A stretch of 21,700 nucleotides of DNA from a virus, in the IMG/VR virus record IMGVR_UViG_3300027861_000220, positions 1 to 21,700 of that record; one strand, 5' to 3'. Shown one piece after another: positions 252 through 13,846 of the stretch. How positions within the stretch are numbered: the stretch's first letter is position 1; every line of letters starts with the position of its first letter. The notes under the pieces are model-generated. The model made no database searches, was not told the origin of the DNA, and was given only the letters and a program-made list of their open reading frames with translations. Both the position numbers and the translations under genes were made by a program.

Positions 252-2456
252 TTAAGTCACTAAAAGAGCGTCCTTTTCGTTTAATACGTCAGATAATTCG
301 CGGATCCGTTCTTGCATTGTCCGGTTGACGGTTTCGCCGATTGACTCCGCCGTTCCGCCTGGTGCATTTATGTTAATATCGCCAAAACTAATATTGCTTT
401 GTCCGGCCCCGCTCCGCCCGTTTGCTAGTGCTAAAATATTCCTTTGTTGTCCGGCGTTTAATATCATTTCGCCACGGTTTACAAGTGCGGTTGTTCTGTC
501 GCCTTGAACAGATCCTTCGCCTACGAAACCACCTCCGGCGAATTTTTGGGAACTAATTGCGGCGACCTGTACGGCTCCGGCCGCTGCTGCGGTTGCCGCT
601 GATATTAAACCTAAAGGAATAAATGGTTGCGTTGCCAGTGCTGAGGTTACGGCTTGAGCTGTGTTTATTATTGCGGAAATCAGAGAGTATTTTTTCTGCT
701 TCTCGAAACCTTTTTTTCTTATCGCGTCGATCTGTTCTTCACTTTTCCCCGCTGCTTTTGCTGCCTTGACGTCGTTGTCGGTTCTTACTTTTGCCAAACC
801 TCCCAAAGCCCCAACGAGACTAGAAATCGACGACATGGAAACATCGGCTAACCTCAAGCGCGAATTAATCAACTCTTGATCATCGGCGCGAATTTTTGCG
901 GTCATTTGCGCGTTTGCCTCCGCCGCATCTTCCCACCGTTTTAATTGATCCTGGTGTGCCTTTTCCTTTGTAATTTCCCGTTGAACCATTATTTTATTGG
1001 CCCTCGCATCTCCCTCGTCTGGGCCTAAAATTGGGCCTAATATTTCCGGTGCTTTCGGTTTTGTGTCTTCGGCTGTCGTTACTGCTTTTAATTCTTTTGT
1101 TTTTGCGATTGCCAAATCTAAAGAGTGAATCAAAGCGTTTCTACTTTCCTCTGTTGCTCCGAAACCTTCTCCCCTTAAATCCTGAACAATTTTTTGTTGA
1201 TCTTTCAATCGGTTATTGGCCGCAAGAATGATCCGCTCTAGCTTTTTTGTTTCTTTCCAAGTCTCGGCTTTTCGCCATTGGTCTTGTGTTTCTGCAATTC
1301 CCTTATTTAGATTGTTAATTCCAATAAGAGCTTGTCTTAATTTCTTGTTTTCGTCGTCACTGAGAATCCCGTCTTTACCTTTGAATTTTTCGGCCTGTTT
1401 GTCTACGGCTTTTATTGCCAATTCTACACCAATTAAAAGTGCGGTCATTCCGGCTAAAACTGGATTGATTGCTATTAATTTTTGAGAAAATGCCACTATT
1501 GCGCCCGCGATTACTGCGAGCTGTTTGGCGGCGAAAACGATTAGAAAGTCCCGCCCAATCCTTAAAACAACGTCGAGATTGCTTCCGATTTTGATTAGAG
1601 CTTGACCCCACTTTTCAAAAACTCCCGATTCGATAGCTTTATTTAGACTGTTGACAACCTTTCCCATAACGTCGCGTAATTTGTCCCATAGTCCAGAGTC
1701 TAATATTTGCCGGATCACGGCTTGCAATTGATCTTTGATTGTACTCGTTAAGCCGGTCACGGTCTTTGAAAGTTTTTCCATTCCGCCCTTGGATCTTTCG
1801 AGTGTCTGCTCCAAAACCGTCCAGGCTTCTTTTCCCTTTCCGGCCTGTTGTAGTGCTTCGATCTTTCCTCTGACTTCCGCCGAAACGATTCCCAATTCTG
1901 TAAGCCTCGCCATAGCTTCACCGACTGGCCTGTTCGCCTGTAATCCGGCATAAGCGCGACCGACCCACATTGCCAATTCTTCAAAACTTCCGCCCGAAGC
2001 GGCGGCCGCATCGCCAACCGTCCGGAGCGCGTCACCGGTAGATAATGCGCCGGCCGTGAGTACTTCCAATAGTCTTGAAGCCTTGGCAACTTCGGCAAGC
2101 TGAAACGGCGTCGTTTGAGCGAATAAGGCGAGTTCTTCCATTCGCTTTTTTGCCTTTTCCGCCGATCCGAGTAAAACCTCGAATTGTACTGAAAGATCCT
2201 CGACTTCCGATCCGGCCTTAATAAAGGAACGAACCAAAACGCCGGTTGCTAAAGCGGCCACGGCTCCAATCGCTAATTTCATTCCGCCAAAACTCTTTTT
2301 CATCTTGTCGGCGGTTTTCTCGCTTTGCTTTTCTACACTTTTTAAGCCTTGGCGAATCTGCTTATTGTTCTTGCCTATATCCTTTGAAATTTTGTTATAG
2401 GCTTTTGTGACTCGGTTTTTGACCGATAATTCGACTTCGACTTTACGACCCGGCAT
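252..2456 (-). CDS. Tail tape measure protein
   Basis: This 734-aa protein would set tail length and sit inside the tail tube. The first ~50 residues are a Lys-rich, coiled-coil-like segment. Residues ~60-240 hold the conserved tape-measure N-terminal region (hydrophobic LAIGAVAALATGVL, then GSEVEDLSVQFEVLLGS and FAQTTPFQLAEVAKASRLL). Further hydrophobic stretches occur around 300-350. A long charged helical middle follows, and the C-terminal part has the usual AATAAAAGAVQVAAISSQKF, FAGGGFVGEG and LVNRGEMILN motifs. The ATG has a strong SD (AAAGGGG) and overlaps the end of the G-T chaperone frame by 14 nt, which is the normal gene order. Family assignment is firm. Confidence 0.93.
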   Translation of the reverse strand: MPGRKVEVELSVKNRVTKAYNKISKDIGKNNKQIRQGLKSVEKQSEKTADKMKKSFGGMKLAIGAVAALATGVLVRSFIKAGSEVEDLSVQFEVLLGSAEKAKKRMEELALFAQTTPFQLAEVAKASRLLEVLTAGALSTGDALRTVGDAAAASGGSFEELAMWVGRAYAGLQANRPVGEAMARLTELGIVSAEVRGKIEALQQAGKGKEAWTVLEQTLERSKGGMEKLSKTVTGLTSTIKDQLQAVIRQILDSGLWDKLRDVMGKVVNSLNKAIESGVFEKWGQALIKIGSNLDVVLRIGRDFLIVFAAKQLAVIAGAIVAFSQKLIAINPVLAGMTALLIGVELAIKAVDKQAEKFKGKDGILSDDENKKLRQALIGINNLNKGIAETQDQWRKAETWKETKKLERIILAANNRLKDQQKIVQDLRGEGFGATEESRNALIHSLDLAIAKTKELKAVTTAEDTKPKAPEILGPILGPDEGDARANKIMVQREITKEKAHQDQLKRWEDAAEANAQMTAKIRADDQELINSRLRLADVSMSSISSLVGALGGLAKVRTDNDVKAAKAAGKSEEQIDAIRKKGFEKQKKYSLISAIINTAQAVTSALATQPFIPLGLISAATAAAAGAVQVAAISSQKFAGGGFVGEGSVQGDRTTALVNRGEMILNAGQQRNILALANGRSGAGQSNISFGDININAPGGTAESIGETVNRTMQERIRELSDVLNEKDALLVT

Positions 2457-3221
2457 TTTTCCCCTTTAGCATTGACGCCATATTCTCGATCTCTCGCGCC
2501 TTGTCCGTTTTCGACTCTTCTTTGTTTTTGATTGTCGCATTGTTTACAATATCCATAAATTCGACCGCTCGCACAAATTTAACTGACTGTTTTTCTAAAC
2601 CGTCGGCAATTGGGAATATACTATAATTTTTAAGCCATTTATACGCAGAAAACAAGTGAAAACCGTCATTACTGACAAAATCTAAAGGTTTTACAGTAAT
2701 CCGCTTGAATCCACGACCGGCGCAAACTTGACAACCTACGCCGTGACATTCGACGCAATACAACTGCCAGGAATCAGAATCGGGATCAATATTTCCGTTC
2801 AAAATTCCTGACAGGATTATTAGTTTTTTCTTTCTTCTCCTGTTAATTCGCCACCCTCTTTTATAGCATCTGATAGCTCTGTCCGGGCTGTTTTCGGGAT
2901 CGCTGATAGGCAATCGGATCTCCACGGCCTTACTCCGCCTTTGAGTTTTTTCGCCCTTTCGTCCCGTTTGAGTTCGACCTCTTTTCCGTCTACGTCTAAG
3001 TTTCTGACATCTTTTAGGCCATAATGTAAAGCCAATAGAGCGGTTGAACCGATAGAAACCTGATAACCGTCGTCGGTTACTCGTCCGAGTTGGTCGTCTA
3101 GATCGGCCTCTTGCTCAATCGTCAAGTGTGCTAACTTGAAAACAGTCTGGTCTTTTTTGGGTAATTTACGATCATCTTTACAGATATAATCGAAAGTGTC
3201 TTTTGGTGATACGCCTTTCAT
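2443..3221 (-). CDS. Tail assembly chaperone G-T, made by -1 frameshift
   Basis: This is the predicted 259-aa frameshift product: residues 1-133 of chaperone G continue into the -1 frame at the AAAAAAC heptamer (2829-2823) and read 126 more codons to a stop at 2443. The extension has no start or SD of its own; its nominal upstream ATG at 2925 lies inside G. The extension carries CVECHGVG followed directly by CQVCAGRG (fusion residues ~156-171), two perfect DnaJ-type CxxCxGxG motifs expected to bind one zinc. In lambda-like siphophages the G and G-T pair loads the tape measure for tube assembly, and the gene sits just upstream of the tape measure here. The fusion is inferred from sequence, not observed. 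Confidence 0.85.
2764..2829 (-). promoter_or_regulatory. Programmed -1 ribosomal frameshift signal
   Basis: The coding strand has A AAA AAC in the correct zero-frame phase at 2829-2823, directly followed by the G stop codon. After an 8-nt spacer comes an 11-bp stem, CTGTCAGGAAT (2814-2804) pairing with ATTCCTGGCAG (2774-2764), with one G-U pair and a 29-nt loop. Heptamer, spacer and stem all fit the classical bacterial/phage -1 signal. A pseudoknot with the loop was not resolved by eye. Confidence 0.85.
2820..3221 (-). CDS. Tail assembly chaperone G (unshifted product)
   Basis: This 133-aa protein is the short form of the tail chaperone pair. I take ATG 3221 as the start: AAAGGA lies 6 nt upstream and the ATG overlaps the stop of the preceding 55-aa gene as ATGA. 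An in-frame ATG at 3260 has no comparable SD. The protein is charged and soluble (KGVSPKDTFDYICKDD at the start, many Lys/Glu, a short hydrophobic SIGSTALLALHYGL segment). It ends in GEERKN at a TAA that directly abuts the slippery heptamer. I recognise it by position, size and the frameshift arrangement rather than by strong sequence identity. Confidence 0.82.
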   Translation of the reverse strand: MKGVSPKDTFDYICKDDRKLPKKDQTVFKLAHLTIEQEADLDDQLGRVTDDGYQVSIGSTALLALHYGLKDVRNLDVDGKEVELKRDERAKKLKGGVRPWRSDCLSAIPKTARTELSDAIKEGGELTGEERKN

Positions 3222-3385
3222 TTTTGATCCTTTCTTTCTGTGGTTTCTATGGTTTTGCAAATCGCCGCTCTGTCTTTTAAATAATTCCCAGGTGAATTAT
3301 AAATATCTTCGGCGGCTTTTCTGTTTGGGAATAAAGGCGAAACAATAATTTCGCTGTGCGTATTGATTATAAAATATTGTTCCAT
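3218..3385 (-). CDS. Small hypothetical protein (55 aa) upstream of the tail chaperones
   Basis: The open frame starts at ATG 3385 with AAAGG 3 nt upstream and ends in a TGA that overlaps the chaperone G ATG (ATGA), so the two are translationally coupled. The product begins MEQYFIINTHSEIIVSPLFPNRKAAEDIYNS, is soluble, has one cysteine and no recognisable motif. It is the first gene after the terminator hairpin that follows the tail tube gene. Coupling and SD make it a likely real gene. Function is unknown. Confidence 0.65.
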   Translation of the reverse strand: MEQYFIINTHSEIIVSPLFPNRKAAEDIYNSPGNYLKDRAAICKTIETTERKDQK

Positions 3386-3430
3386 AAGCCTTTAGAGTGA
3401 ATATAAATCAATAAATGCCAAACGGGCAAC

Positions 3431-3457
3431 AAAAAAGCCCGGAACGGATGTCCGGGC
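3431..3457 (-). terminator. Rho-independent terminator after the tail tube gene
   Basis: Read on the minus strand, GCCCGGA (3457-3451) pairs perfectly with TCCGGGC (3443-3437) across a 7-nt loop and is followed by six Ts (3436-3431). It lies 31 nt past the tail tube stop and before the small gene and chaperones. The same strand carries on with tail genes, so it probably lowers, rather than ends, downstream transcription. Confidence 0.85.
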
Positions 3458-3487
3458 CATTCTGCCATTTGATAGAAAGGCAAACCG

Positions 3488-4915
3488 TCAAATGAAAAGT
3501 AGCTCGATTTCGTCGTCCGTGTCTGTCAGATTTCCAGTGCAAAGTGCTTCCAAAGCGATCCCAACAATGCCGTCTTGGTCTTCGATTGGTAAAGCTGAAA
3601 ACTCCAATTCGTCGGCCATAAAATAAAATTGTTTGCCAACTGTGCCACCAATATGTAATGAAAGACTCGTTTTCGTTCCGGCGTCAAGCTTGGCGAAAAA
3701 GTCGAAAGTCGCGGCGAGTTCCATCTCTAAATTAATAGTGACTTTTGGCTCTCTTGCTGTGATCCTTGCGGCTTCGTACCCTGTCCCGTCGGTAGCGTTT
3801 CCGTTCTCTCTGAGCGCGACGGTGTTTCCCATATCAAACGAAAAGTTTCTGAAAACTGGAGTAAAAGAACCGGCTAGCGTCAATTCCGCATCTTTCATTA
3901 TTGGCGGATCTTCGTTGTCGCGTGTTATTGTAGTCATGGCCTTGTCGCCGTTTGTCAATTTCGCGCCTTGAAACTCGAAATTATTGAAACCTTGACGATT
4001 GGCGGCGGCCTCGATCGTGAGATTAGCCATTGACGATCTTGCACTCCACGCGTAACCGTCTTGTTGCAATTCTAGCGTTGCGGCCTCTTGGTTGTTGGAA
4101 ATTGGCTTGATATGATAACCATAAACAGCGGGCGACCCTGACGTTGTCGCTGTGGCTCCTGACGTTCCGCCGGTTATTAATTCGGTTGTCAGTATAGGCA
4201 AGACCGAAGTCGCCTCAAAATAGACATAACCCGCGCCTGTGACTTCGGCTTTTAAAACTCGACCAGTTCCGCCTCCGGCTCCGGTGATTGTTTCGCCCCT
4301 CTGAAAAGGCCCGCTTGTTATTGCGCCAATTGCCACGCGAGAAGATCCCAGAACTTCAAGACCTGACGCGTTATAGGCCCACTGAACGTCTATATTTTCT
4401 TGTATGTCAGCTACTGCGGGAGAGTCTGTCGCCTCGTCGTCTGTTGCGTCGTCACGGTCACGATTGACAACGTCGACATAGTCAGATCCCACGGTTTCAA
4501 TTAAGAAAGTTCCAGAGTTTGAAAGGTTAGTCGCATAATTCACGGTCAAATAATCGCCGGCAACTATAGAGGTCAGAGTCGGAGAGCCATTGAATGAATA
4601 TCGGATTAAATTTCCGCTTTGCCAATCAATTGTATCAACGTCAAGACCGGCCAAAACTGAAAAAGTGTCCGGTGTGTTGATCTCGGATTGAAACGAAATA
4701 TTTGTTCCCTTGGTACTTTCCAGATTTCCAATAGGCGTTAAACTGGCTCTTGCCAAATTGCGCGGTTCTCTTGGCGCGTTGTATTCGGCTGTTGCGCCTA
4801 CCGTGATCCGGCCCTTTCCGTCGTCCGCCGTCAAAACTTCCGAAGTTCCGCAAGTTGACTCGACTCGTCCGAGTATCTGTTGTTTTCTGCTAAGTAGTGG
4901 ATCGCAAGTTGTCAT
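3488..4915 (-). CDS. Major tail (tube) protein
   Basis: This 475-aa protein is the likely tail tube subunit. It is beta-rich and soluble, with no signal peptide, and sits between the connector genes and the tail chaperones, where siphophages place the tube gene. A strong SD (AACGGAGG, 10 nt from ATG 4915) and the following terminator fit a highly expressed structural gene. It is long for a tube protein. Residues ~195-275 look like an added beta-sandwich with two Gly/Thr-rich turns (GETITGAGGGTGRV and GGTSGATATTSG), a pattern seen in phage decoration and fibre domains. The C-terminal half (TNGDKAMTTITRDNEDPP onward) reads like the core tube fold. A role as another abundant tail protein cannot be excluded. 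Confidence 0.75.
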   Translation of the reverse strand: MTTCDPLLSRKQQILGRVESTCGTSEVLTADDGKGRITVGATAEYNAPREPRNLARASLTPIGNLESTKGTNISFQSEINTPDTFSVLAGLDVDTIDWQSGNLIRYSFNGSPTLTSIVAGDYLTVNYATNLSNSGTFLIETVGSDYVDVVNRDRDDATDDEATDSPAVADIQENIDVQWAYNASGLEVLGSSRVAIGAITSGPFQRGETITGAGGGTGRVLKAEVTGAGYVYFEATSVLPILTTELITGGTSGATATTSGSPAVYGYHIKPISNNQEAATLELQQDGYAWSARSSMANLTIEAAANRQGFNNFEFQGAKLTNGDKAMTTITRDNEDPPIMKDAELTLAGSFTPVFRNFSFDMGNTVALRENGNATDGTGYEAARITAREPKVTINLEMELAATFDFFAKLDAGTKTSLSLHIGGTVGKQFYFMADELEFSALPIEDQDGIVGIALEALCTGNLTDTDDEIELLFI

Positions 4916-4931
4916 AATGTTAAACCTCCGT

Positions 4932-5390
4932 TTATGTTGTGCTGCTTGGGTTTGTCTTTAAAACTCTGTATTCTATCGTAAAAAGGATATCCACGGAACC
5001 AGGACGCGCCCGAACATTCGTATATTGGCGACTGCTTCCGAGATAGTCGGCAACAATCATTCCTTTAGTCCTTAGATTGGCGTGATCCGCCTCCAACAAA
5101 CGTTTAAAATCCTCAATAACCCGATCCAATGCTTTGTCGACCGGTGAAACCGTGTTATCGACCGTGACTTGGAAGGTGATTTCGGAATCCGACGTATAAG
5201 AGTTTATAGTCTCGCCGTCGGGATCTCTGTTCGTTTCTTCTGGCAATAAAACCATTACGTTTGGATATGTTTTCGTCGTGTGATTATAATCATTTGTGCG
5301 AGTATAATTCGAGTTATAGCCGCCGACTATGGTCATAGCGTTAATTGCCGTGATTATCTCGTTTATTATGTCGGTGTAAATAGTAGGCAT
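4932..5390 (-). CDS. Putative tail terminator / tail completion protein
   Basis: This 152-aa soluble protein (MPTIYTDIINEIITAINAM...) has an alpha-beta pattern like phage tail-terminator or minor tail proteins. It has an N-terminal helix, a middle strand region ITFQVTVDNT, a helix DKALDRVIEDFKRLLEAD, and a closing strand VDILFTIEYRVLKT. It lies between the gp37-like protein and the tail tube, the usual slot for such proteins. The ATG at 5390 has only a weak SD and lies 6 nt after the previous stop, so it probably depends on coupling. Together with the gp37-like protein next to it, one of the two would cap the tail. Which one does so is not decided by the sequence. Confidence 0.6.
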   Translation of the reverse strand: MPTIYTDIINEIITAINAMTIVGGYNSNYTRTNDYNHTTKTYPNVMVLLPEETNRDPDGETINSYTSDSEITFQVTVDNTVSPVDKALDRVIEDFKRLLEADHANLRTKGMIVADYLGSSRQYTNVRARPGSVDILFTIEYRVLKTNPSSTT

Positions 5391-5396
5391 TTTCTT

Positions 5397-5825
5397 TTAT
5401 TCGTGTTCTGGGGCCGTAAAGGCGAAAGTAATCTCGTAAACCCATTTCCCGCCGTCCTCGGCGACAAACCGGTCATTAATAGGCCATAAAATCGACGCGT
5501 CCGACTGATTGGTTATCGTATATCCTGAAAGCTTAGAACGTACCGACTCAATGAGAGTGTAGACGCCTTGGTGTCCTTTTTTCAGCTTTAAACTTCTTTG
5601 AATGACAGTAACAATCCATTCAAAAGTTCGCGTTTGTGTTAAAAATTTCTGGTTGTTGGCTTCCGGCGGGTTGGTGTAATTACTGCCGTTATACCGAACT
5701 AATAAAGATCCGTTTGGATGTAAATGATTAAACTCCGTCGGGTTATCCGGCCATGATCGGACGTCTACGTTTGTGATCTCTGATAATTTTGTAATGAGAT
5801 CATTTTCTACTGTAGTTAAATCCAT
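5397..5825 (-). CDS. Mu gp37-like (DUF1834) head-tail or tail-terminator protein
   Basis: This 142-aa protein resembles the Mu gp37/DUF1834 group. It has an N-terminal helix (LTTVENDLITKLSEI), then DVRSWPDNP, a strand GSLLVRYNGSNY, TRTFEWIVTVIQRSLK, a helix GVYTLIESVRSKLSGY, and a terminal strand WVYEITFAFTAPEHE. It directly follows the gp36-like gene, its start overlapping that stop by one base, exactly as in Mu-like head-tail clusters. Such proteins act at the head-tail junction or tail end. Family assignment is by pattern and gene order. Confidence 0.75.
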   Translation of the reverse strand: MDLTTVENDLITKLSEITNVDVRSWPDNPTEFNHLHPNGSLLVRYNGSNYTNPPEANNQKFLTQTRTFEWIVTVIQRSLKLKKGHQGVYTLIESVRSKLSGYTITNQSDASILWPINDRFVAEDGGKWVYEITFAFTAPEHE

Positions 5826-6301
5826 TAGGTATCAAGTCCATCATTCGGGCCGAAGAATCTGTCAAGGCGTCCGGTCTTTTCGCTTGTAGTCTTAAAAATT
5901 GGTTGGCTTATACTTTTCTTTAAAACGTAAAAATTAGCTTGATTGGCGTCTGAGTCGGCGTCGTCGATTAAAATTTTGTTGTCCCTTAATGCCCTAAGCT
6001 CCGTATTTACTAACGCTATATCCTCTTTTATTGCGTCTGGTACTTGCAGATCGACGCGCCTTTTATAAAGGTTGAGAATAGCCAGAGAAACCGACCAACG
6101 ACGAACAGAGTCGGGAACTGGCGAAAAAGGTAAGGTTGAGTGCTTACCTCTTGCGAAACTATCAATTTGGGAATCGGCGTCGGCGATTGCGCGGGTCACT
6201 GTCACAACGTTGACAGTGATCCCGCTCGTATCGTCGGTTAATTGTGCAAGAAAAACTCCTGGGAGTCGTTCCTCGACATCTGATTGTGAACTATACGCCA
6301 T
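5825..6301 (-). CDS. Mu gp36-like (DUF1320) head-tail connector
   Basis: This 158-aa protein begins MAYSSQSDVEERLPGVFLAQLTDD, the typical opening of the DUF1320/gp36 family. The core is helical (VVTVTRAIADADSQIDSFARGKH, then VRRWSVSLAILNLYKRR), matching the family's connector fold, and a flexible acidic tail follows. It would form a ring below the portal. It follows the major capsid gene by 9 nt and lacks an obvious SD, so translation probably depends on coupling. Confidence 0.85.
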   Translation of the reverse strand: MAYSSQSDVEERLPGVFLAQLTDDTSGITVNVVTVTRAIADADSQIDSFARGKHSTLPFSPVPDSVRRWSVSLAILNLYKRRVDLQVPDAIKEDIALVNTELRALRDNKILIDDADSDANQANFYVLKKSISQPIFKTTSEKTGRLDRFFGPNDGLDT

Positions 6302-6310
6302 TGGTTCATA

Positions 6311-7297
6311 TTAAGTCAGAATTGTGTCAACCCAAGCATATCCGAGTTGAGAGGCGATTATCTGAATGTCAGTATCTTCGCGACACTCATAAACCCACTG
6401 GTCTTCGGCCTCTTCGCGGAATACGCGATTTAAGCGTCCGCCTCCGCCCTGTTGCTTGACCCTGAACTGTCCGCCGGCTGTTGGAACTTTTAAGCCCATT
6501 GTTTGGGGTGTGTAACATAAGAAAGCCGATCCCTTTGTGGCTGTCTTTTCCCAAACGTATTTTGCGGTCATGGTATCGGTTTTCTCTTCTTTTGCGGTGT
6601 TGGTTATAGCCCCACCAACAAGAACGTTTAGGCCCAATAATGAACCGAGCAGATCAGCAGTGACAACGTTTTTCATTGTATACTTGATTTTGTCGGCAAC
6701 GTCGGGGTTCTGTTTCAGATCTTCCATAGTCCGATAGTCCAAGACTAAAGTGTTTGGAGTCATTCCGGTTTCGCTCTGAATCTTTATTATACCGGCTGTT
6801 ATGTCAGTAAAGAAAGTATTCGTTCCACTGGCTACGGTGTGCGCCCACTGTCCCGCGACATCTTCTCCGCCGGCGTTTCCATCGGCCCAAGTTGCAGCTT
6901 GGATAATTTCGGCGATCCGAACTTCTTTGCGAAGGTCGATTTTATCAGCGCAATACTCGATTGCATCCTGTTGAGAATTTACAGGGGGAGCGCCGACCAT
7001 TCCCTGACTTTCAATGTCTTCGCGGGTAACGGCCTTGGCGAAGGCATACTGTAAAGTCTGAATTGAAACGCTTGTCAGTTTGTAGTCGCCTCGTTTGGCT
7101 TTTGAGCCAGGAGCACGCAAAGCTGCCTCGTCACGGAACCAATCCCCGCGAAAATACTTTGTGTATTTTGCTTTGTGGGAAATGTTGTCTTTAATCGGGA
7201 AAATCTTATCCGCGATATAAGACGAATTTTTAAACCGTGTACTCGCATCTTGCAAGGGGCCGGCGATTATTTCACTTCTAATATCTGGTGTGGGCAT
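6311..7297 (-). CDS. Major capsid protein
   Basis: This 328-aa protein is the HK97-fold-type capsid subunit expected here. I start it at ATG 7297, where GGAGG lies 8 nt upstream; a TTG two codons earlier falls inside that spacing. The sequence has an N-arm with PDIRSEIIAGPL, a basic loop (YTKYFRGDWFRDEAALRAPG), a helical region around KIDLRKEVRIAEIIQAA, a DYRTMEDLKQNPDVADKIKY segment and a Gly-rich GGQFRVKQQGGGGRLN turn. It closes with WVYECREDTDIQIIASQLGYAWVDTIL, typical of capsid C-termini in Mu-like phages. Gene order (protease/scaffold, decoration, capsid, connector) supports the call. Confidence 0.88.
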   Translation of the reverse strand: MPTPDIRSEIIAGPLQDASTRFKNSSYIADKIFPIKDNISHKAKYTKYFRGDWFRDEAALRAPGSKAKRGDYKLTSVSIQTLQYAFAKAVTREDIESQGMVGAPPVNSQQDAIEYCADKIDLRKEVRIAEIIQAATWADGNAGGEDVAGQWAHTVASGTNTFFTDITAGIIKIQSETGMTPNTLVLDYRTMEDLKQNPDVADKIKYTMKNVVTADLLGSLLGLNVLVGGAITNTAKEEKTDTMTAKYVWEKTATKGSAFLCYTPQTMGLKVPTAGGQFRVKQQGGGGRLNRVFREEAEDQWVYECREDTDIQIIASQLGYAWVDTILT

Positions 7298-7330
7298 TTT
7301 CAAGTCCTCCGTTAAATTTTTAAATTTGGT

Positions 7331-7711
7331 TTATGCGTCTACTGTCTGAGAGCTGAGTAATACTTCACCGAGATCGTCCTCGACTCCGCCCTGCAAAAGA
7401 AGGCCGGCGGGTTCTGCTGTTGATGCCGCTGCGATTGCTTTTCCGGTTGCGGCTTCGGTTGATACCTTTGCGCCGGCGGCCAGAGTTGCGCCCAAAACGA
7501 TTTTAGAAGTTCCGCCCGATCCCATTGGAACGATTAAAGCCTCTTCGCCGATTCCTGGGGTATTTTGTACAACCCCAACTATGGGAGCGGTGATCGCTGC
7601 CGGTGAGATTGCTTTCCCGTCACTGTCTAGGGAAATATAAGTGTACTGTAAAGACGAAAGATCTTCGGCAGCTTCTAAAGTGATAGGATTCGCGGGGTTA
7701 CAAGTAGTCAT
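7331..7711 (-). CDS. Head decoration / capsid cement protein (DUF2190-like)
   Basis: This 126-aa, Ala/Gly-rich beta protein resembles the DUF2190 group that decorates or cements phage capsids. Examples are QYTYISLDSDGKAISPAAI, PIVGVVQNTPGIGEEALIVPMG and KIVLGATLAAGAKVSTEAATGKAIAA. The strong SD (AATGGAGG, 8 nt spacing) suggests abundant synthesis. It lies between protease/scaffold and capsid genes. Its first residues, MTTCNP, match those of the tail tube protein (MTTCDP). Confidence 0.85.
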   Translation of the reverse strand: MTTCNPANPITLEAAEDLSSLQYTYISLDSDGKAISPAAITAPIVGVVQNTPGIGEEALIVPMGSGGTSKIVLGATLAAGAKVSTEAATGKAIAAASTAEPAGLLLQGGVEDDLGEVLLSSQTVDA

Positions 7712-7744
7712 TTTCTAGACCTCCATTAAATTGTTAAAAACCGT

Positions 7745-8305
7745 TTATTTGTTATAAAGTTTTGTTAGTTCTGGATTTTCGTCCTGAGCTTTTTTGAAAC
7801 ATTCGCTATAAGACATATTTGGATTGGCTTTTTCGATTTCTACGGTCTTGGCTGCGAGTTGGTCACCGGCTCCGGTCTTGGTGGCTCCGTCTTTTATCTG
7901 CTCGCCGAAGTCGATTTTCTTTTCTCCGCTCGAAAGCTGATTTTTGAAAATGTCCAGAGCGGTCAACTTTTTCGTTTCGCCGTTTTCGGAAAACTCCATT
8001 TCCTCGGAATCATTCAAACCTTTCAAGGTTTTAATATACCCGTCTTTGTGAGCGGGTAAAATCCGACCGGCTTCGATCTGCTCGTCCACGAAATCGGAAA
8101 ACTCTTTGGTCTTTGCGGTTTCGCTCGCTTCGGTGATCTTGGCATCGGCGTCGTCGGCGCGTTTGGTTTCGGCTGTTAGCTTTTCGCTAAACTCTTTTTT
8201 CTCAGCTTCGTGAGAAGCTTCTTTTTCTGCGAAGTTGGCTTCGTTTTCTGCGATAGTGCCTTCCAAGCTTGAAACTTTCTTTTCGAGTTCTTCGACTGTT
8301 GCCAT
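7745..8305 (-). CDS. Scaffold protein from internal start (Mu Z-like)
   Basis: An in-frame ATG at 8305 (codon 168 of the protease gene) is preceded 8 nt upstream by GGAGG within AACGGAGG, far stronger than the SD of the full-length gene. It would give a 186-aa protein made only of the coiled-coil scaffold and its tail (MATVEELEKKVSSLEGT...). In Mu and lambda (I/Z, C/Nu3) the scaffold is likewise made from an internal start in the protease gene, in excess over the protease. Translation from this site is inferred from the SD and the family precedent. Confidence 0.82.
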   Translation of the reverse strand: MATVEELEKKVSSLEGTIAENEANFAEKEASHEAEKKEFSEKLTAETKRADDADAKITEASETAKTKEFSDFVDEQIEAGRILPAHKDGYIKTLKGLNDSEEMEFSENGETKKLTALDIFKNQLSSGEKKIDFGEQIKDGATKTGAGDQLAAKTVEIEKANPNMSYSECFKKAQDENPELTKLYNK

Positions 8306-8806
8306 TTCTTGATCCTCCGTTAATTTTTCATTAAATAAATGTTTGACTATATCCTTGATAACCTTTTTTAATTTGCTTTCGTCGGCCTCGGTTTCTGCGA
8401 AGTCGAAAGCTGTAAATTCATCTGTCGCCGAAAATGCGAAATCGGCCAAACCTTTTACGGCCGGCGCGGAAGCCCCTAAAAACGCGATATGTCTTAAACT
8501 CATGTCGGGCCTTAAGGCAATCGAGCGATTTTTAAACATCTTGTTTTTAAGCATTGTTCCGAACTCGTCCACGACGTCGGACATTTCAGCGACCAGAGTG
8601 TCGCCTTTCCTGAAAACCTTCTTAAACCATGCAAAAGCCGGCGCGGTGTCGCTCTCTGGATGTCCTATTGTGGCGGGTACTGCGTCGCCTTTTTCAAACT
8701 GAGAAACAATCTTATCTAGATCGTTTTCTGTCCATTTTTTAGTATTTCCCGCACTATCGGTTTGGTGTCCGCATTTAAAAACTTCCATTTGTACTGATTT
8801 TGGCAT
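7745..8806 (-). CDS. Mu gpI-like head maturation protease with C-terminal scaffold
   Basis: This 353-aa protein looks like the Mu I family (Mu-like_Pro): an N-terminal protease domain joined to a scaffold. Residues ~1-130 hold the protease features: KKWTENDLDKIVSQF, PATIGHPESDTAPAFAWFKKV, FKNRSIALRPDM (RSIAL is the likely Ser-nucleophile region) and HIAFLGASAPAVKGL. Residues ~165-260 form an acidic, Glu/Lys-rich coiled coil typical of scaffolds. The C-terminus has a short helix-rich tail (NPNMSYSECFKKAQDENPELTKLYNK). ATG 8806 lacks a good SD, so the full-length protein is probably made in low amounts. It is first in the leftward late transcript. Confidence 0.88.
   Translation of the reverse strand: MPKSVQMEVFKCGHQTDSAGNTKKWTENDLDKIVSQFEKGDAVPATIGHPESDTAPAFAWFKKVFRKGDTLVAEMSDVVDEFGTMLKNKMFKNRSIALRPDMSLRHIAFLGASAPAVKGLADFAFSATDEFTAFDFAETEADESKLKKVIKDIVKHLFNEKLTEDQEMATVEELEKKVSSLEGTIAENEANFAEKEASHEAEKKEFSEKLTAETKRADDADAKITEASETAKTKEFSDFVDEQIEAGRILPAHKDGYIKTLKGLNDSEEMEFSENGETKKLTALDIFKNQLSSGEKKIDFGEQIKDGATKTGAGDQLAAKTVEIEKANPNMSYSECFKKAQDENPELTKLYNK
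8306..8320 (-). promoter_or_regulatory. Internal ribosome binding site for scaffold
   Basis: The minus strand reads AACGGAGG, eight more bases, then ATG 8305. The site is inside the protease coding frame and nearly copies the leaders of the capsid, decoration and tail tube genes. Confidence 0.85.
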
Positions 8807-8916: not shown

Positions 8917-9372
8917 ATGAGTAAAACACGATTAGATTGGGACGAAAACCACAAGCTGATAACTGAAACCTATATGAAGTTATCAAAGAAAAAGAGCAAA
9001 CGGCCATCGCTCGCCGAAGTGTCAAAAGTAACCGGCTTTTCAATCCGGACGATTCACCTTCACTTAAAAGAGTTGGCCGAAATGAGTTTCGAGGAACGTT
9101 TCAGGGATTTGAAGTTAATGTCTGACTCTCTTTTAATATCAATGCACAAATACGGCGCAACCGGAAGGGCTAGTTGTGCGAAACTGTTCTTTCAAATGGT
9201 CGACGGTTTCACCGAGAAAACAGATCATAAAATCAAGTTCGACGAGTTGTCATTAATGAGTAAAAAAGAACTTGAGGCGAAACTCAACGAGTATACAATC
9301 CCAAAGCGAGAGAAAAAGAAAAAGCCTAAAACGAAAAAGAAGGCCGTAAAAAATGCAAAAAAGTCAAAGTGA
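8917..9372 (+). CDS. Terminase small subunit (HTH protein)
   Basis: This 151-aa protein has a helix-turn-helix at about residues 30-55 (SLAEVSKVTGFSIRTIHLHL), a helical middle and a strongly basic Lys-rich C-terminus (KREKKKKPKTKKK). It precedes and overlaps the large terminase gene by 20 nt. An HTH DNA-binding protein next to TerL fits the small subunit that recognises packaging DNA. The ATG has AGAGG 4 nt upstream. Small subunits vary greatly, so the call leans on context. Confidence 0.78.
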   Translation: MSKTRLDWDENHKLITETYMKLSKKKSKRPSLAEVSKVTGFSIRTIHLHLKELAEMSFEERFRDLKLMSDSLLISMHKYGATGRASCAKLFFQMVDGFTEKTDHKIKFDELSLMSKKELEAKLNEYTIPKREKKKKPKTKKKAVKNAKKSK

Positions 9373-10861
9373 ACAATCATTAATTGACCGGATCAAACTC
9401 CAAAGGGAATTGACTCGGCGCGATTGTGTCGAGTCTTTCTATAATTTTTTTCAATATTTTTGGGGCGCAATCGTTCCCGAAAGCCTTGTCGATAATTGGC
9501 ATATCCGTTATTTATGCGCCGAACTGCAATTAATAGGCGAGCAGATTATCCGGCGTGAAATATCGGAGTATGATTTGATAATCAATATTCCGCCAGGAAC
9601 CACGAAAAGCACTATCACTACGGTTATGTTTCCGGCTTGGTTGTGGCTACGGGATTCGACTTTGCGAGTCATATCCGGATCATACTCCGCCGAAATTGCT
9701 ATCGATCACGCGGTCAAAAGTCGCCATTTACTGAAATCTTTTAAATTTCAAGAACTTTATGGTGATTTAATCGCATTTTCTCCGGATCAAGACAACAAAA
9801 GCTATTACCAGAATACCGCCGGCGGAACGAGATCGGCCTGTGGTGTAGGGGGGGCCATAACCGGAAAGCATGGTCATATTATCATAATCGACGATCCTAT
9901 AAACCCGAAACAATCCAATTCTGAAGCGTACCGGAAAACGGCTAACGATTGGATGAAAAATACGCTATCAACTCGTAAAGTAGACAAGGCGAAGACGCCA
10001 ACGATCTTAATAATGCAACGGCTCCACGAAGATGATCCGACCGGAAACAGGCTCCAAAAGGGCCGTGTAAAACATATCTGTCTACCTTCCGAGGTTTCAG
10101 AGTTGGACAATATAAGTCCGCCAGAGCTTGAGCAATACTATATCGACGGGTTACTCGATACCGTCCGAATGAGTCACGACGTTTTAACCAATGAGCGCGA
10201 GCAGTTAGGATCGGCGGAGTACGCCGGCCAATATTTACAAAGCCCCACGGCTGCCGAAGGTAATTTATTTAAACGAGATTGGTTCCAATATTACGGCGAA
10301 CTACCGAAAGGACGACCGCAAAGAGTTGTCAACTCCTGGGATACTGCTTTTAAAAAAGGGGAAGAAAACGATTTTTCCGCTTGCACCACTTGGTTCGAGT
10401 ATGAAAACGGCTTTTATCTGGTCGATATGTTTCAGGATAAACTAGAATTTCCCGATTTAAAGCGTCAAATACCGATCCAATCGTTAAAATGGCGCGCTCA
10501 TTATAATTTAATCGAAGATAAGGCGAGCGGACAAAGTTTAATACAGGAATTGCGGTTAAAAGGCAAAATAACCATAATAGCGGTACAAGTTGACAAAGAT
10601 AAAATAGCCAGAGCCAAAATGTCGACTCCGGCAATTGAGGCGAAAAAAGTTTTTTTACCCGAAGCCGGTTGGATAAATATATTCTTAGATCAAATGTGCG
10701 GTTTTCCAAACACCAAAAACGACGACATTGTCGACACGGTTTCCCAATTTTTGAATTGGGCGCGGGAAAATCCTTTCGATACTCCGCGAGCGGTTGGTCG
10801 TGGTCGTCGCCAAACAAACAATTTATTAAGGGGAAATAGCTATGACGCAGCGAAATTCTAA
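9353..10861 (+). CDS. Terminase large subunit (TerL)
   Basis: This 502-aa protein is the DNA-packaging motor and nuclease. The ATPase domain shows a Walker A variant PPGTTKST (~80-87), the adenine-binding region around FYNFFQYFWG, and a Walker B HIIIIDDP (~175-182). Coupling-type residues follow in ILIMQRLHEDDPTG. The C-terminal RNase H-like nuclease starts at VVNSWDTAFKKGEENDFSA (Asp ~330 and ~340), continues with LIEDKASGQSLIQEL and ends at a KNDDIVDTVSQFL acidic cluster. All usual motifs are present and the gene looks intact. It overlaps the small subunit by 20 nt and the portal by 20 nt. Confidence 0.95.
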   Translation: MQKSQSEQSLIDRIKLQRELTRRDCVESFYNFFQYFWGAIVPESLVDNWHIRYLCAELQLIGEQIIRREISEYDLIINIPPGTTKSTITTVMFPAWLWLRDSTLRVISGSYSAEIAIDHAVKSRHLLKSFKFQELYGDLIAFSPDQDNKSYYQNTAGGTRSACGVGGAITGKHGHIIIIDDPINPKQSNSEAYRKTANDWMKNTLSTRKVDKAKTPTILIMQRLHEDDPTGNRLQKGRVKHICLPSEVSELDNISPPELEQYYIDGLLDTVRMSHDVLTNEREQLGSAEYAGQYLQSPTAAEGNLFKRDWFQYYGELPKGRPQRVVNSWDTAFKKGEENDFSACTTWFEYENGFYLVDMFQDKLEFPDLKRQIPIQSLKWRAHYNLIEDKASGQSLIQELRLKGKITIIAVQVDKDKIARAKMSTPAIEAKKVFLPEAGWINIFLDQMCGFPNTKNDDIVDTVSQFLNWARENPFDTPRAVGRGRRQTNNLLRGNSYDAAKF

Positions 10862-12398
10862 AGGCCAATTCATTAAAAATCAGTTTAAAGCCTCAAACGA
10901 AGCTACTCGAAGCCGGCGATCACGGTCAAAAGGTGACTTTCCAACCGAAGCGGAGATCGCAAGCCGTCAAAACTCTATGGATTGGGGCGGGTATCTTGAA
11001 TATTTGCCGAACCCGGATCAAGTCCTCTTGAACATCGGTCGCGATATGTCCGTTTATGCTGATATTCGCCACGATCCCCACTTGACCGCCGTAATTTCGA
11101 GCAGAAAATCCGGTGTAAAATCTATGTTATGGGAGATTGATCGGGGAAAATCTATGTCCCGTCACGCGAAAGCCGTTTCGGCTGTATTCGGTAAATTAGA
11201 CGTTTATCGCATAATCAATGACATTCTCGATTACTTTTTAACCGGTTTGGCTCCGGTCGAAGTTATGTGGGATCGTCCAAACGAGGCCGGTTTAATCCTT
11301 CCCTTTGAAGTAATGGGAAAACCTCCTGAATGGTTTATGTATGATGGAAATAACGTTTTAAAGTTCCGCTCTATATCCGCCGGACTAGCCGGTGAGGACA
11401 TTTCAAACCGGAAAATAATAAATCCAAGGCACAACCCGACGTATAAAAATCCCTACGGGGAAAGCCTTCTCTCGACGGTTTATTGGCCGATTATCTTTAA
11501 ATTTGGCGGTCTTAAATTCTGGATGAAATTTACGGAAAAGTTCGGACAACCTTTCGCTATTGGTAAGGCTCCACGATCCGCCGGCATAACCGAGTTTAAT
11601 AATCTGGCTACCTTGCTTGAGGATCTTCTCCAGGATTCGGTTGCGGCCATTCCTGACGACTCAAGCGTCGAATTTCTCGAAGCCTCCGGCAAAAAAGCAA
11701 GCTCGGACATTTATTTGGATCTGCTGAATTTCTGTAATGCGGAAATCTCGAAAGCTATTCTCGGTCACGGTTCCGCTGCCGATTCCACTCCTGGCAAGCT
11801 TGGCGGAGAAGATGCTCAATTAAGCGTCCGGCAAGATATAATCGAAGAGGACAAAAGGATTGTCGAAAGTTGCATGAACGAGCTTATAAAATGGATTATG
11901 GAAGTCAATTTCGGTGTTGCGGAGTCTATACCCGTTTTTTCTCTCCACAAAGAGCAAGACATCGAAAAGGATAGAGCGGAGCGCGATAAAATGCTAACCG
12001 ATACCGGTCAAATACAATTGACTCAACAATATGTCGATTCTGCTTACGGTTTCGAGAAAGACGACATAATCGTCAAGGCGGCAGCGACGCAAGAGATTGC
12101 CGAAACTGTGATTCCTGAGAAAGCGAAAGCCAACTTTGCGGAGCAAATTTCGACATTCAAGGATCAAGCTGTTATAGACGAAATGTTGAGATCAATCAGT
12201 CCCGAAGAACTGAGAAAACAGGCTGATTTCGTAAAGCCGATTTTTGACCTTTTCGACAAATCGCAAAACTATTCCGAAGCGATGGAAGGATTAATCGACG
12301 TTTTTGGTGAGGTTGATCCCGAAGCACTTTCAAAGGTTTTAGAGAGGGCCGTTTTTATATCCGACATTTGGGGAAGACTGCAAGAAAATAAAGCCTAA
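10842..12398 (+). CDS. Portal protein (Mu gp29 / DUF935 family)
   Basis: This 518-aa protein matches the DUF935 portal family: QVLLNIGRDMSVYADIRHDPHLTAVISSRKSGV near the N-terminus, then VDRPNE-type VMWDRPNEAGLILPFEV, LLSTVYWPIIFKFGGLKFWMKFTEKFGQPFAIG, and a helical KAILGHGSAAD segment. The portal is the dodecameric ring at one capsid vertex that docks terminase and later the tail. AGGGG lies 8 nt before ATG 10842, which is inside the terminase end. The C-terminal ~100 residues are acidic and helical. Intact and of normal length. Confidence 0.93.
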   Translation: MTQRNSKGQFIKNQFKASNEATRSRRSRSKGDFPTEAEIASRQNSMDWGGYLEYLPNPDQVLLNIGRDMSVYADIRHDPHLTAVISSRKSGVKSMLWEIDRGKSMSRHAKAVSAVFGKLDVYRIINDILDYFLTGLAPVEVMWDRPNEAGLILPFEVMGKPPEWFMYDGNNVLKFRSISAGLAGEDISNRKIINPRHNPTYKNPYGESLLSTVYWPIIFKFGGLKFWMKFTEKFGQPFAIGKAPRSAGITEFNNLATLLEDLLQDSVAAIPDDSSVEFLEASGKKASSDIYLDLLNFCNAEISKAILGHGSAADSTPGKLGGEDAQLSVRQDIIEEDKRIVESCMNELIKWIMEVNFGVAESIPVFSLHKEQDIEKDRAERDKMLTDTGQIQLTQQYVDSAYGFEKDDIIVKAAATQEIAETVIPEKAKANFAEQISTFKDQAVIDEMLRSISPEELRKQADFVKPIFDLFDKSQNYSEAMEGLIDVFGEVDPEALSKVLERAVFISDIWGRLQENKA

Positions 12399-12400
12399 TA

Positions 12401-12433
12401 ACCATCAAATGACCATCAAACAACCGTCAAACA
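12401..12433 (+). repeat. Three 11-bp tandem repeats directly before the Mu F gene
   Basis: ACCATCAAATG (12401), ACCATCAAACA (12412) and ACCGTCAAACA (12423) follow each other without gap and end exactly at ATG 12434. They fill the place where an SD should be. No SD-like sequence is present. Confidence 0.85.
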
Positions 12434-13846
12434 ATGCCCGAATTTAATAAAAACATTCTCGCGACCGCTCTCGGAATGGAGCCCGCCGACGCCATTAATT
12501 ATATGGAATCCAAAGGTTTCAAAATAACTTGGGATTGGACAGAAACGTTAAACGAAGCCAATAACAAGGTTTTCCAAGTCGCAAAGTCTATGCGAATGGA
12601 CGTTTTACAGGATATCCGATCCGAAGTCCAAAAAGCCATTGATAAGGGAATCCCGTTTAATAAATTCCGTGAAAACCTCGAACCGACTTTAGTTAAAAAA
12701 GGTTGGTGGGGAAAAAAGACGATCGTCGGGCCTCGCGGAGTTCAAACGGTTCAACTCGGATCACCGCATCGCCTGAAAACAATCTATTCGACAAACGTTC
12801 AAAGCGCGTACAATGCCGGACGCTGGAAAGGTCAAGAGGCAAACAAAGAGCGACGTCCTTATTTAATGCTTATCGAGTTTCTTGACAAGGCTGCCAGAGT
12901 GACGCACAAGTCGAGGTCGGGATCTATAGCTCCGGTTGACTCTCGGTTTTGGCAAGGGCCGGCGTCTTGGTATCCTCCAAACGGTTTCGGTTGTCGTGGT
13001 CGCGTTCGTTCGTTGACCGAAGAACAGGCAAAAGCTCGCGGAATTGGTTTAAAAGGTTTTGGCCGTCCCGATCCTGGCTTCGGTGGCAATCCTGGGATTA
13101 CTATTTGGAAACCTAAAAAAGCCGATTATGACAAAGATATTTGGGAAAAAGGCGAGCAATTGGCTCCTCCGGCCCCAATTTCTCCGGAAACATTCAAACC
13201 GGCTAAAACGATTAAGGAAGCTAATTCAAGGTTATCAAAAGTTAGTGATCATGTAGGAATAAACGAAAATTTATCAATTACCAATGAAATTTTGTCCGCT
13301 CTCGAAGAAAATTTAAAACCAATAGGGATAAAATTAAAATCACTAGAATATATAAGAAAAAACGCTAGACAATTAGGCAAGGCGGGAGCGACAAAGTTAC
13401 AATTACAAAAAACTTTTTTAAAGCAACCAGAGCAAAGAACAAAAAAAATCGTTGTTGAATTTGAAAACAGAAAAAAAAGAGAATTAATAAACATTGAAAA
13501 AGGATTATTAGACGACAGACCAGAGCCATTAAAGGATATTTTAAGAAAGAAAAAACTTAATATTTTAAACTCTAAAACTCCGTTTTCTTTCGCAACAACA
13601 AAAAGAAAAATATACGCAGTAGCAAAGCATGAATCATATCATACCATATTTTTTGAAAAAGACTTAAAAGATAAATTTCTTAATAATATAAAAGGTATTC
13701 CAATAAATAAATGGTTTTCGGTTTCAGAATACGCAGGATCAAATTTATCAGAATTGTTTGCTGAATTAGGCACTCAAATAAGTTTAGGAAATAAGATCCC
13801 TAACGATTTAAAAACCGCATTTCTAAAAACAATGAAAGGTATATAA
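12434..13846 (+). CDS. Mu F-like head morphogenesis protein fused to a putative zincin metallopeptidase
   Basis: This 470-aa protein has two parts. Residues ~1-250 are a phage Mu F domain: RLKTIYSTNVQSAYNAGRWK (~112-131), then AARVTHKSRSGSIAPVDSRFW and WYPPNGFGCRGRVRSL (~180-195). This is a minor head protein near the portal. Residues ~265-470 are Lys/Asn-rich and contain KHESYHTIFF (HExxH, H399-E400-H403), followed by SEYAGSNLSELFAELG (E440/E444), a pattern like ATLF-type zincins. The DNA from about 13230 is much richer in A and poorer in CpG than the front half, and arginine switches to AGA. This suggests the tail was acquired separately. ATG 12434 has no SD. Protease activity and target are inferred. 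Confidence 0.85.
   Translation: MPEFNKNILATALGMEPADAINYMESKGFKITWDWTETLNEANNKVFQVAKSMRMDVLQDIRSEVQKAIDKGIPFNKFRENLEPTLVKKGWWGKKTIVGPRGVQTVQLGSPHRLKTIYSTNVQSAYNAGRWKGQEANKERRPYLMLIEFLDKAARVTHKSRSGSIAPVDSRFWQGPASWYPPNGFGCRGRVRSLTEEQAKARGIGLKGFGRPDPGFGGNPGITIWKPKKADYDKDIWEKGEQLAPPAPISPETFKPAKTIKEANSRLSKVSDHVGINENLSITNEILSALEENLKPIGIKLKSLEYIRKNARQLGKAGATKLQLQKTFLKQPEQRTKKIVVEFENRKKRELINIEKGLLDDRPEPLKDILRKKKLNILNSKTPFSFATTKRKIYAVAKHESYHTIFFEKDLKDKFLNNIKGIPINKWFSVSEYAGSNLSELFAELGTQISLGNKIPNDLKTAFLKTMKGI

Follow-up and report, generated by a model that had tools for sequence, protein, structure and literature searches.

Analysis of the 21.7-kb virus record IMGVR_UViG_3300027861_000220 (positions 1–21,700, hereafter the window) reveals a small gene, G, with the gene of the major tail protein (MTP) on one side and that of the tape measure protein (TMP) on the other, followed in the -1 frame by an extension, T. 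Read along the minus strand, the order is MTP, G, T, TMP, and the pair is therefore assigned to the tail assembly chaperones of the lambda G/GT type. The features of the locus are the following:

252–2456, minus strand: TMP, whose start overlaps the end of T; matches TMP_3 (E 7e-10) and several PHROG tape-measure families.
2446–2829, minus strand: T extension, 128 residues in the -1 frame, from translation, family alignment and an AlphaFold2 model (pLDDT 86.4).
2587–2619, minus strand: IFPIADGLEKQ, the window form of the family motif LPPVAGGxLDQ, from the family alignment.
2710–2757, minus strand: inner Cys4 hairpin CVECHGVGCQVCAGRG, from translation and family alignment, with strands predicted on both sides.
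2764–2774, minus strand: 3' arm of a stem, ATTCCTGGCAG, pairing with the 5' arm.
2804–2814, minus strand: 5' arm of the stem, CTGTCAGGAAT, 8 nt 3' of the heptamer (folding z -3.34).
2820–3221, minus strand: G, tail assembly chaperone of 133 residues ending in EERKN and then TAA; aligns with the G of relatives and lies between the MTP and TMP genes.
2823–2829, minus strand: in-register slippery heptamer (A AAA AAC) that abuts the G stop on its 5' side; G contains no other in-register heptamer.
3488–4915, minus strand: MTP, of the one family that stands upstream in each of the 47 GT loci.

On the minus strand, G starts with the ATG at 3221 and the stop codon of T occupies 2445–2443; the predicted GT fusion is about 259 residues long. 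Neither G nor T of the window matched a named family in Pfam, PHROGs or NCBIfam, the named lambda-type G/GT families giving no sequence match; the G of one relative (L044) gave a weak match to phrog_313 (E 0.12). The capsid and tail genes occupy 252–8806 of the window on the minus strand, in a layout divergent with respect to the plus-strand region 8917–13846 that contains terminase, portal-like and head morphogenesis-like genes. At 475 residues, the MTP of the window exceeds that of most relatives (about 310) by some 160 residues, which suggests an inserted domain.

The 3' end of G reads GGA GAA GAA AGA AAA AAC TAA TAA, so that the heptamer (2829–2823) stands in the X XXY YYZ register and adjoins the stop codon (2822–2820) without a gap. 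It is separated by an 8-nt spacer, UAAUAAUC, from a stem of 11 bp including one G-U pair, with a minimum free energy of -23.9 kcal/mol and a z-score of -3.34, a stability equalled by 1 of 200 shuffled sequences. Heptamer, spacer and stem are thus all found at the G stop codon, as the original prediction had claimed, and together they form the arrangement by which programmed -1 frameshifting is recognised, i.e. a heptamer with a structure 5–9 nt downstream; slippage itself and its rate are inferred. The gene order and the -1 frameshift near the end of G are shared with lambda gpG/gpGT and with other long-tailed phages (PMC5009743). In lambda, T is made only as a fusion to G, as predicted for the window, at a G:GT ratio of about 30:1 (PMC5009743). 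In the gp12/gp13 pair of Acinetobacter phage Loki, the stop codon of the first chaperone is likewise immediately preceded by A AAA AAC, which was proposed as the slip site (PMC5313236). Slippage in E. coli is far weaker on A AAA AAC than on A AAA AAG (PMC5009743); A AAA AAC recurs in many members of the T family of the window.

The -1 product reads KKLIILSG...CVECHGVGCQVCAGRG...AGS and contains, in the form CVECHGVGCQVCAGRG, the back-to-back CxxCxGxG pair that had been predicted for the extension. In AlphaFold2 models of T (pLDDT 86–88) the inner knuckles are flanked by one strand on each side. A Cys4 zinc knuckle or ribbon is characterised by four cysteines in two CxxC pairs that are framed by two strands and retained as a unit, and the hairpin of the window, which shows this pattern, very probably binds one zinc ion. 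The window T alone did not match any entry in a sequence search of the PDB, and searches of the PDB and BFVD by structure yielded nothing significant for T.

Used as direct queries against IMG/VR and isolated phages, T, G and the head protein of the window retrieved no relatives with a readable T. The family was reached only by scanning DNA for a pattern that encodes two CxxCxGxG motifs back to back, followed by iteration. In IMG/VR the scan returned at least 120 stretches, mostly encoding unrelated proteins; the double motif is common in viral contigs, and the idea that it is a phage rarity was rejected. Among the matches, L044 and L114 showed the full arrangement of MTP, G, slippery run, T and TMP. 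Iteration with their T sequences retrieved L125, L129 and L130, then a locus in an assembled Phycisphaerae genome, and further iteration led to 59 viral loci, of which L187 and L188 are unrelated, and to more loci in Planctomycetota genomes. The resulting set, mostly built with cysteine-bearing profiles, comprises 66 distinct T extensions; heptamers were scored on 44 distinct loci and the MTP was tested on 47 loci. The scan also returned recurrent CPKCKGKGCSHCGGTG proteins (L011, L021, L026, L028, L031, L034, L037, L038, L041, L045 and others), whose starts lie within the 3' end of an upstream ORF in another frame, with the stop 11–17 nt before the motif, and which contain no slippery site; together with the upstream ORFs they are separate, overlapping gene pairs.

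An in-register heptamer marks the start of the T frame in each of the 44 distinct loci scored, the background being 10 of 4400 upstream codon positions in the G genes of the family (0.23%). The heptamers are A AAA AAA, A AAA AAC, A AAA AAG or G GGA AAC, and since the type varies, selection appears to act on slipperiness rather than on the encoded peptide. T likewise starts from an in-register heptamer in L191–L194 and L220–L223, with G GGA AAA in L191, and over the whole set a canonical in-register heptamer is present at the T start of 64 of 66 distinct extensions, the exceptions being L126 and L273. Heptamer and extension are thus kept across divergent relatives, and the proposal that the cysteine motif is confined to the frameshifted product is upheld. 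Absence of both heptamer and stem from relatives had been named as a result that would speak against frameshifting: the heptamer is kept, the stem of the window is not, and a conserved stimulatory stem was rejected. In L126 (4839–4890; also L127), T joins G at GTG GAA AAG, with the non-canonical GGAAAAG; in the C-terminal part of T these loci are close to the window, and all eight cysteines are present. In L273 (approximately 5235–5260) G ends in a run of ten A and T is found in frame +1 (or -2), which reflects either another kind of shift or a homopolymer error.

Two other origins of T can be weighed against ribosomal slippage. An independent T gene with a start codon of its own, next to an incidental heptamer, could be argued for from the T-frame ATG that follows G in L126 with a possible ribosome-binding site, and from a TTG close to the motif in the window. 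The stretch from slip to motif in the window contains neither ATG nor GTG, however; in many relatives a T-frame stop codon stands immediately 5' of the slippery run and the T frame has no ATG, GTG or TTG ahead of the first cysteine, so that T cannot start by itself in those relatives. As the homology of T among relatives also begins exactly at the slip site, an independent gene is hardly credible. Slippage of the RNA polymerase on the A run, instead of the ribosome, would be plausible for the runs of nine A found in 37 of the 44 distinct loci, which are long enough for it (L273 has ten), and it is possible in these nine-A relatives. The run of the window consists of six A followed by C, and a run of six A is too short for efficient transcriptional slippage, which is therefore unlikely in the window. 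Other members have runs of six to eight A, or G GGA AAC, and the stem at the correct spacing in the window also argues against the polymerase, which makes transcriptional slippage an improbable source of GT.

Alignment of the 66 distinct T sequences shows that most contain eight cysteines arranged in two nested sets. The outer set has the form CxxC-x4-8-C, a variable loop and then CP, and the inner set, CxxCxGxGCxxC, is seated in this loop; both are present in about 50 T sequences. The inner set is wholly absent and the outer one kept in L176, L186 and L220, three of the four inner cysteines are lost in L259 with one stray remaining, and only the outer set is present in L235, in L242–L243 and in isolated phages, including Alteromonas P24, Rhizobium I4 and Rhodobacter RcZahn. 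Conversely, the window, L194 and L222 have kept the inner set and wholly lost the outer one, distal CP cysteine included. The CP cysteine is missing in 3 of 66 sequences, exactly those without the N-terminal three (probability 2e-5 assuming independence), and these three losses are scattered on a tree that is poorly resolved with long branches. No T sequence lacking both sets occurred among the 66, which were mostly collected by cysteine-bearing profiles. The loss of the cysteine sets as units argues for two separate predicted Cys4 metal sites that are gained or lost as units. The flanking strands of the models would bring the chain back so that the CP cysteine may meet the first three. The window is a derived single-site member with the inner site only; the predicted CxxCxGxG pair is thus present on its chaperone, but represents only the inner half of a two-site module.

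Redox activity can occur in paired CxxC motifs, and the cysteines might accordingly be read as a redox or disulphide element instead of a zinc site. We consider this quite improbable, as the four-cysteine sets are kept or lost as units, His apparently replaces Cys in a few sequences (L192, L193 and L223) and the predicted flanking strands better suit a tetrahedral metal site. The original prediction had further seen in the extension borrowing from, or convergence on, the cysteine-rich region of DnaJ; on such a reading GT could act, as DnaJ does, as a zinc-dependent unfolding chaperone. The two adjacent CxxCxGxG motifs of the window speak in favour of this, as does anti-TRAP, which shares DnaJ-like motifs (PMC2896485) and is among the weak structure matches to T. 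Like T, both anti-TRAP and the DnaJ region have CxxCxGxG knuckles, and theirs bind zinc, but these knuckles are further apart than those of T. Moreover, DnaJ has four spaced motifs forming two sites whereas the window has two, back to back; anti-TRAP is a separate small protein; the second GxG is missing from most relatives; the outer site is of the form CxxC-x-C...CP and not CxxCxGxG; and a J domain is absent. Searching the PDB sequences with the family profile, the best matches were to the alpha subunit of phenylalanyl-tRNA synthetase (PheRS; 4p71, E 5.7e-5, and 2rhq, E 6.3e-4), anti-TRAP was matched weakly (E 0.43) and DnaJ not at all at E ≤ 1. Of about 100 weak genomic matches of the profile, 25 were inspected, and at least 23 of these proved to be PheS. 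The top Foldseek matches in the PDB, none significant, include PheRS and anti-TRAP, and DnaJ does not appear in the structure-match lists from the PDB and BFVD, all of them non-significant and still compatible with a shared fold. Kinship with DnaJ is thus very improbable and the likeness probably only superficial.

The Cys4 hairpin of PheRS alpha (4p71 and 2rhq) resembles that of T in its CxxCxGxGCxxC motif with identical spacing and in its neighbouring strands, and 24 residues superpose at 0.8 Å, which is not significant; it is a small hairpin within an enzyme that has nothing further in common with T. Short Cys4 hairpins can readily arise repeatedly, and the similarity, seen at the level of sequence, may reflect either descent or convergence. 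Planctomycetota PheS sequences with a CxxCxGxGCxxC hairpin (L195–L219) are the nearest non-phage sequence match to the T motif.

Taken together, these data make it highly likely that the window encodes a lambda-type G/GT pair produced by -1 slippage on A AAA AAC, in which T carries a predicted Cys4 zinc hairpin and the window is a single-site member. Most ribosomes would end at the TAA and produce G, and a minority, aided by the stem, would slip by -1 on A AAA AAC and produce GT. The compact Cys4 hairpin of T, with one predicted zinc, would stabilise the fold of T. With such slippage, the metal-bearing form would be the minor one, and the slip is predicted to decide which copies of the chaperone can bind metal. 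The original prediction placed the zinc motif on a tail chaperone that recruits the tape measure; in lambda, G binds the tape measure and T the major tail protein (PMC5009743), and by this analogy T would contact the latter. The lambda counterpart of T recruits MTP to the G-coated tape measure, and the Cys4 site may hold a T domain that recruits the MTP family of the window; we infer a T-MTP contact in the window phage from this analogy. A single MTP family is present upstream of G in 47 of 47 loci tested, a pairing with T that fits MTP recruitment without proving it, and a long ORF lies 3' of T in nearly all loci in which the contig is long enough. A search with the MTP only, blind to T, retrieved 31 viral loci, of which 29 reach T, and the cysteine extension is present in all 29; the cysteine-bearing T is not a product of the search method. 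A further step, in which GT would grip MTP only when zinc-bound, and frameshift dose and metal would together gate tube growth on the tape measure, is rather unlikely; were it true, phages could swap sites and still keep the gate.

In the searched literature, which covered few subscription journals, no paper was found that describes zinc in the extension of a tail chaperone, and a conserved zinc-type module in this known frameshift system is, within that literature, previously undescribed. Little is known about the structure of the T domain, which is made only by frameshifting, or about how it binds; the family provides structural studies with a compact T module and with clear Cys-to-Ser mutants, and opens a route to testing how T meets MTP. 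The T proteins of lambda, HK97 and Loki, unlike those of the window family, have no CxxC, that of Loki having no cysteine; the cysteine trait is therefore lineage-bound.

The MTP or T was also found in isolated phages, namely Alteromonas P24, Rhodobacter RcZahn and RcTiptonus, Rhizobium I4, L338C and TM16, and Agrobacterium JP1, in all of which a cysteine-bearing T follows an in-register A AAA AAC, A AAA AAG or G GGA AAC. The junction of P24 closely parallels that of the window, G ending in ESERKN-stop vs. EERKN-stop and T starting with KKLII in both. In the records of the isolated phages (L224–L231) the GT frameshift is unannotated and T is either a separate hypothetical protein or missing; the family thus provides a sequence signature for spotting unannotated GT frameshifts in environmental phages. 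A further locus, L234 (2534–3220), shares the MTP family and has a different G/T region, with T TTT TTC and without the CxxC module.
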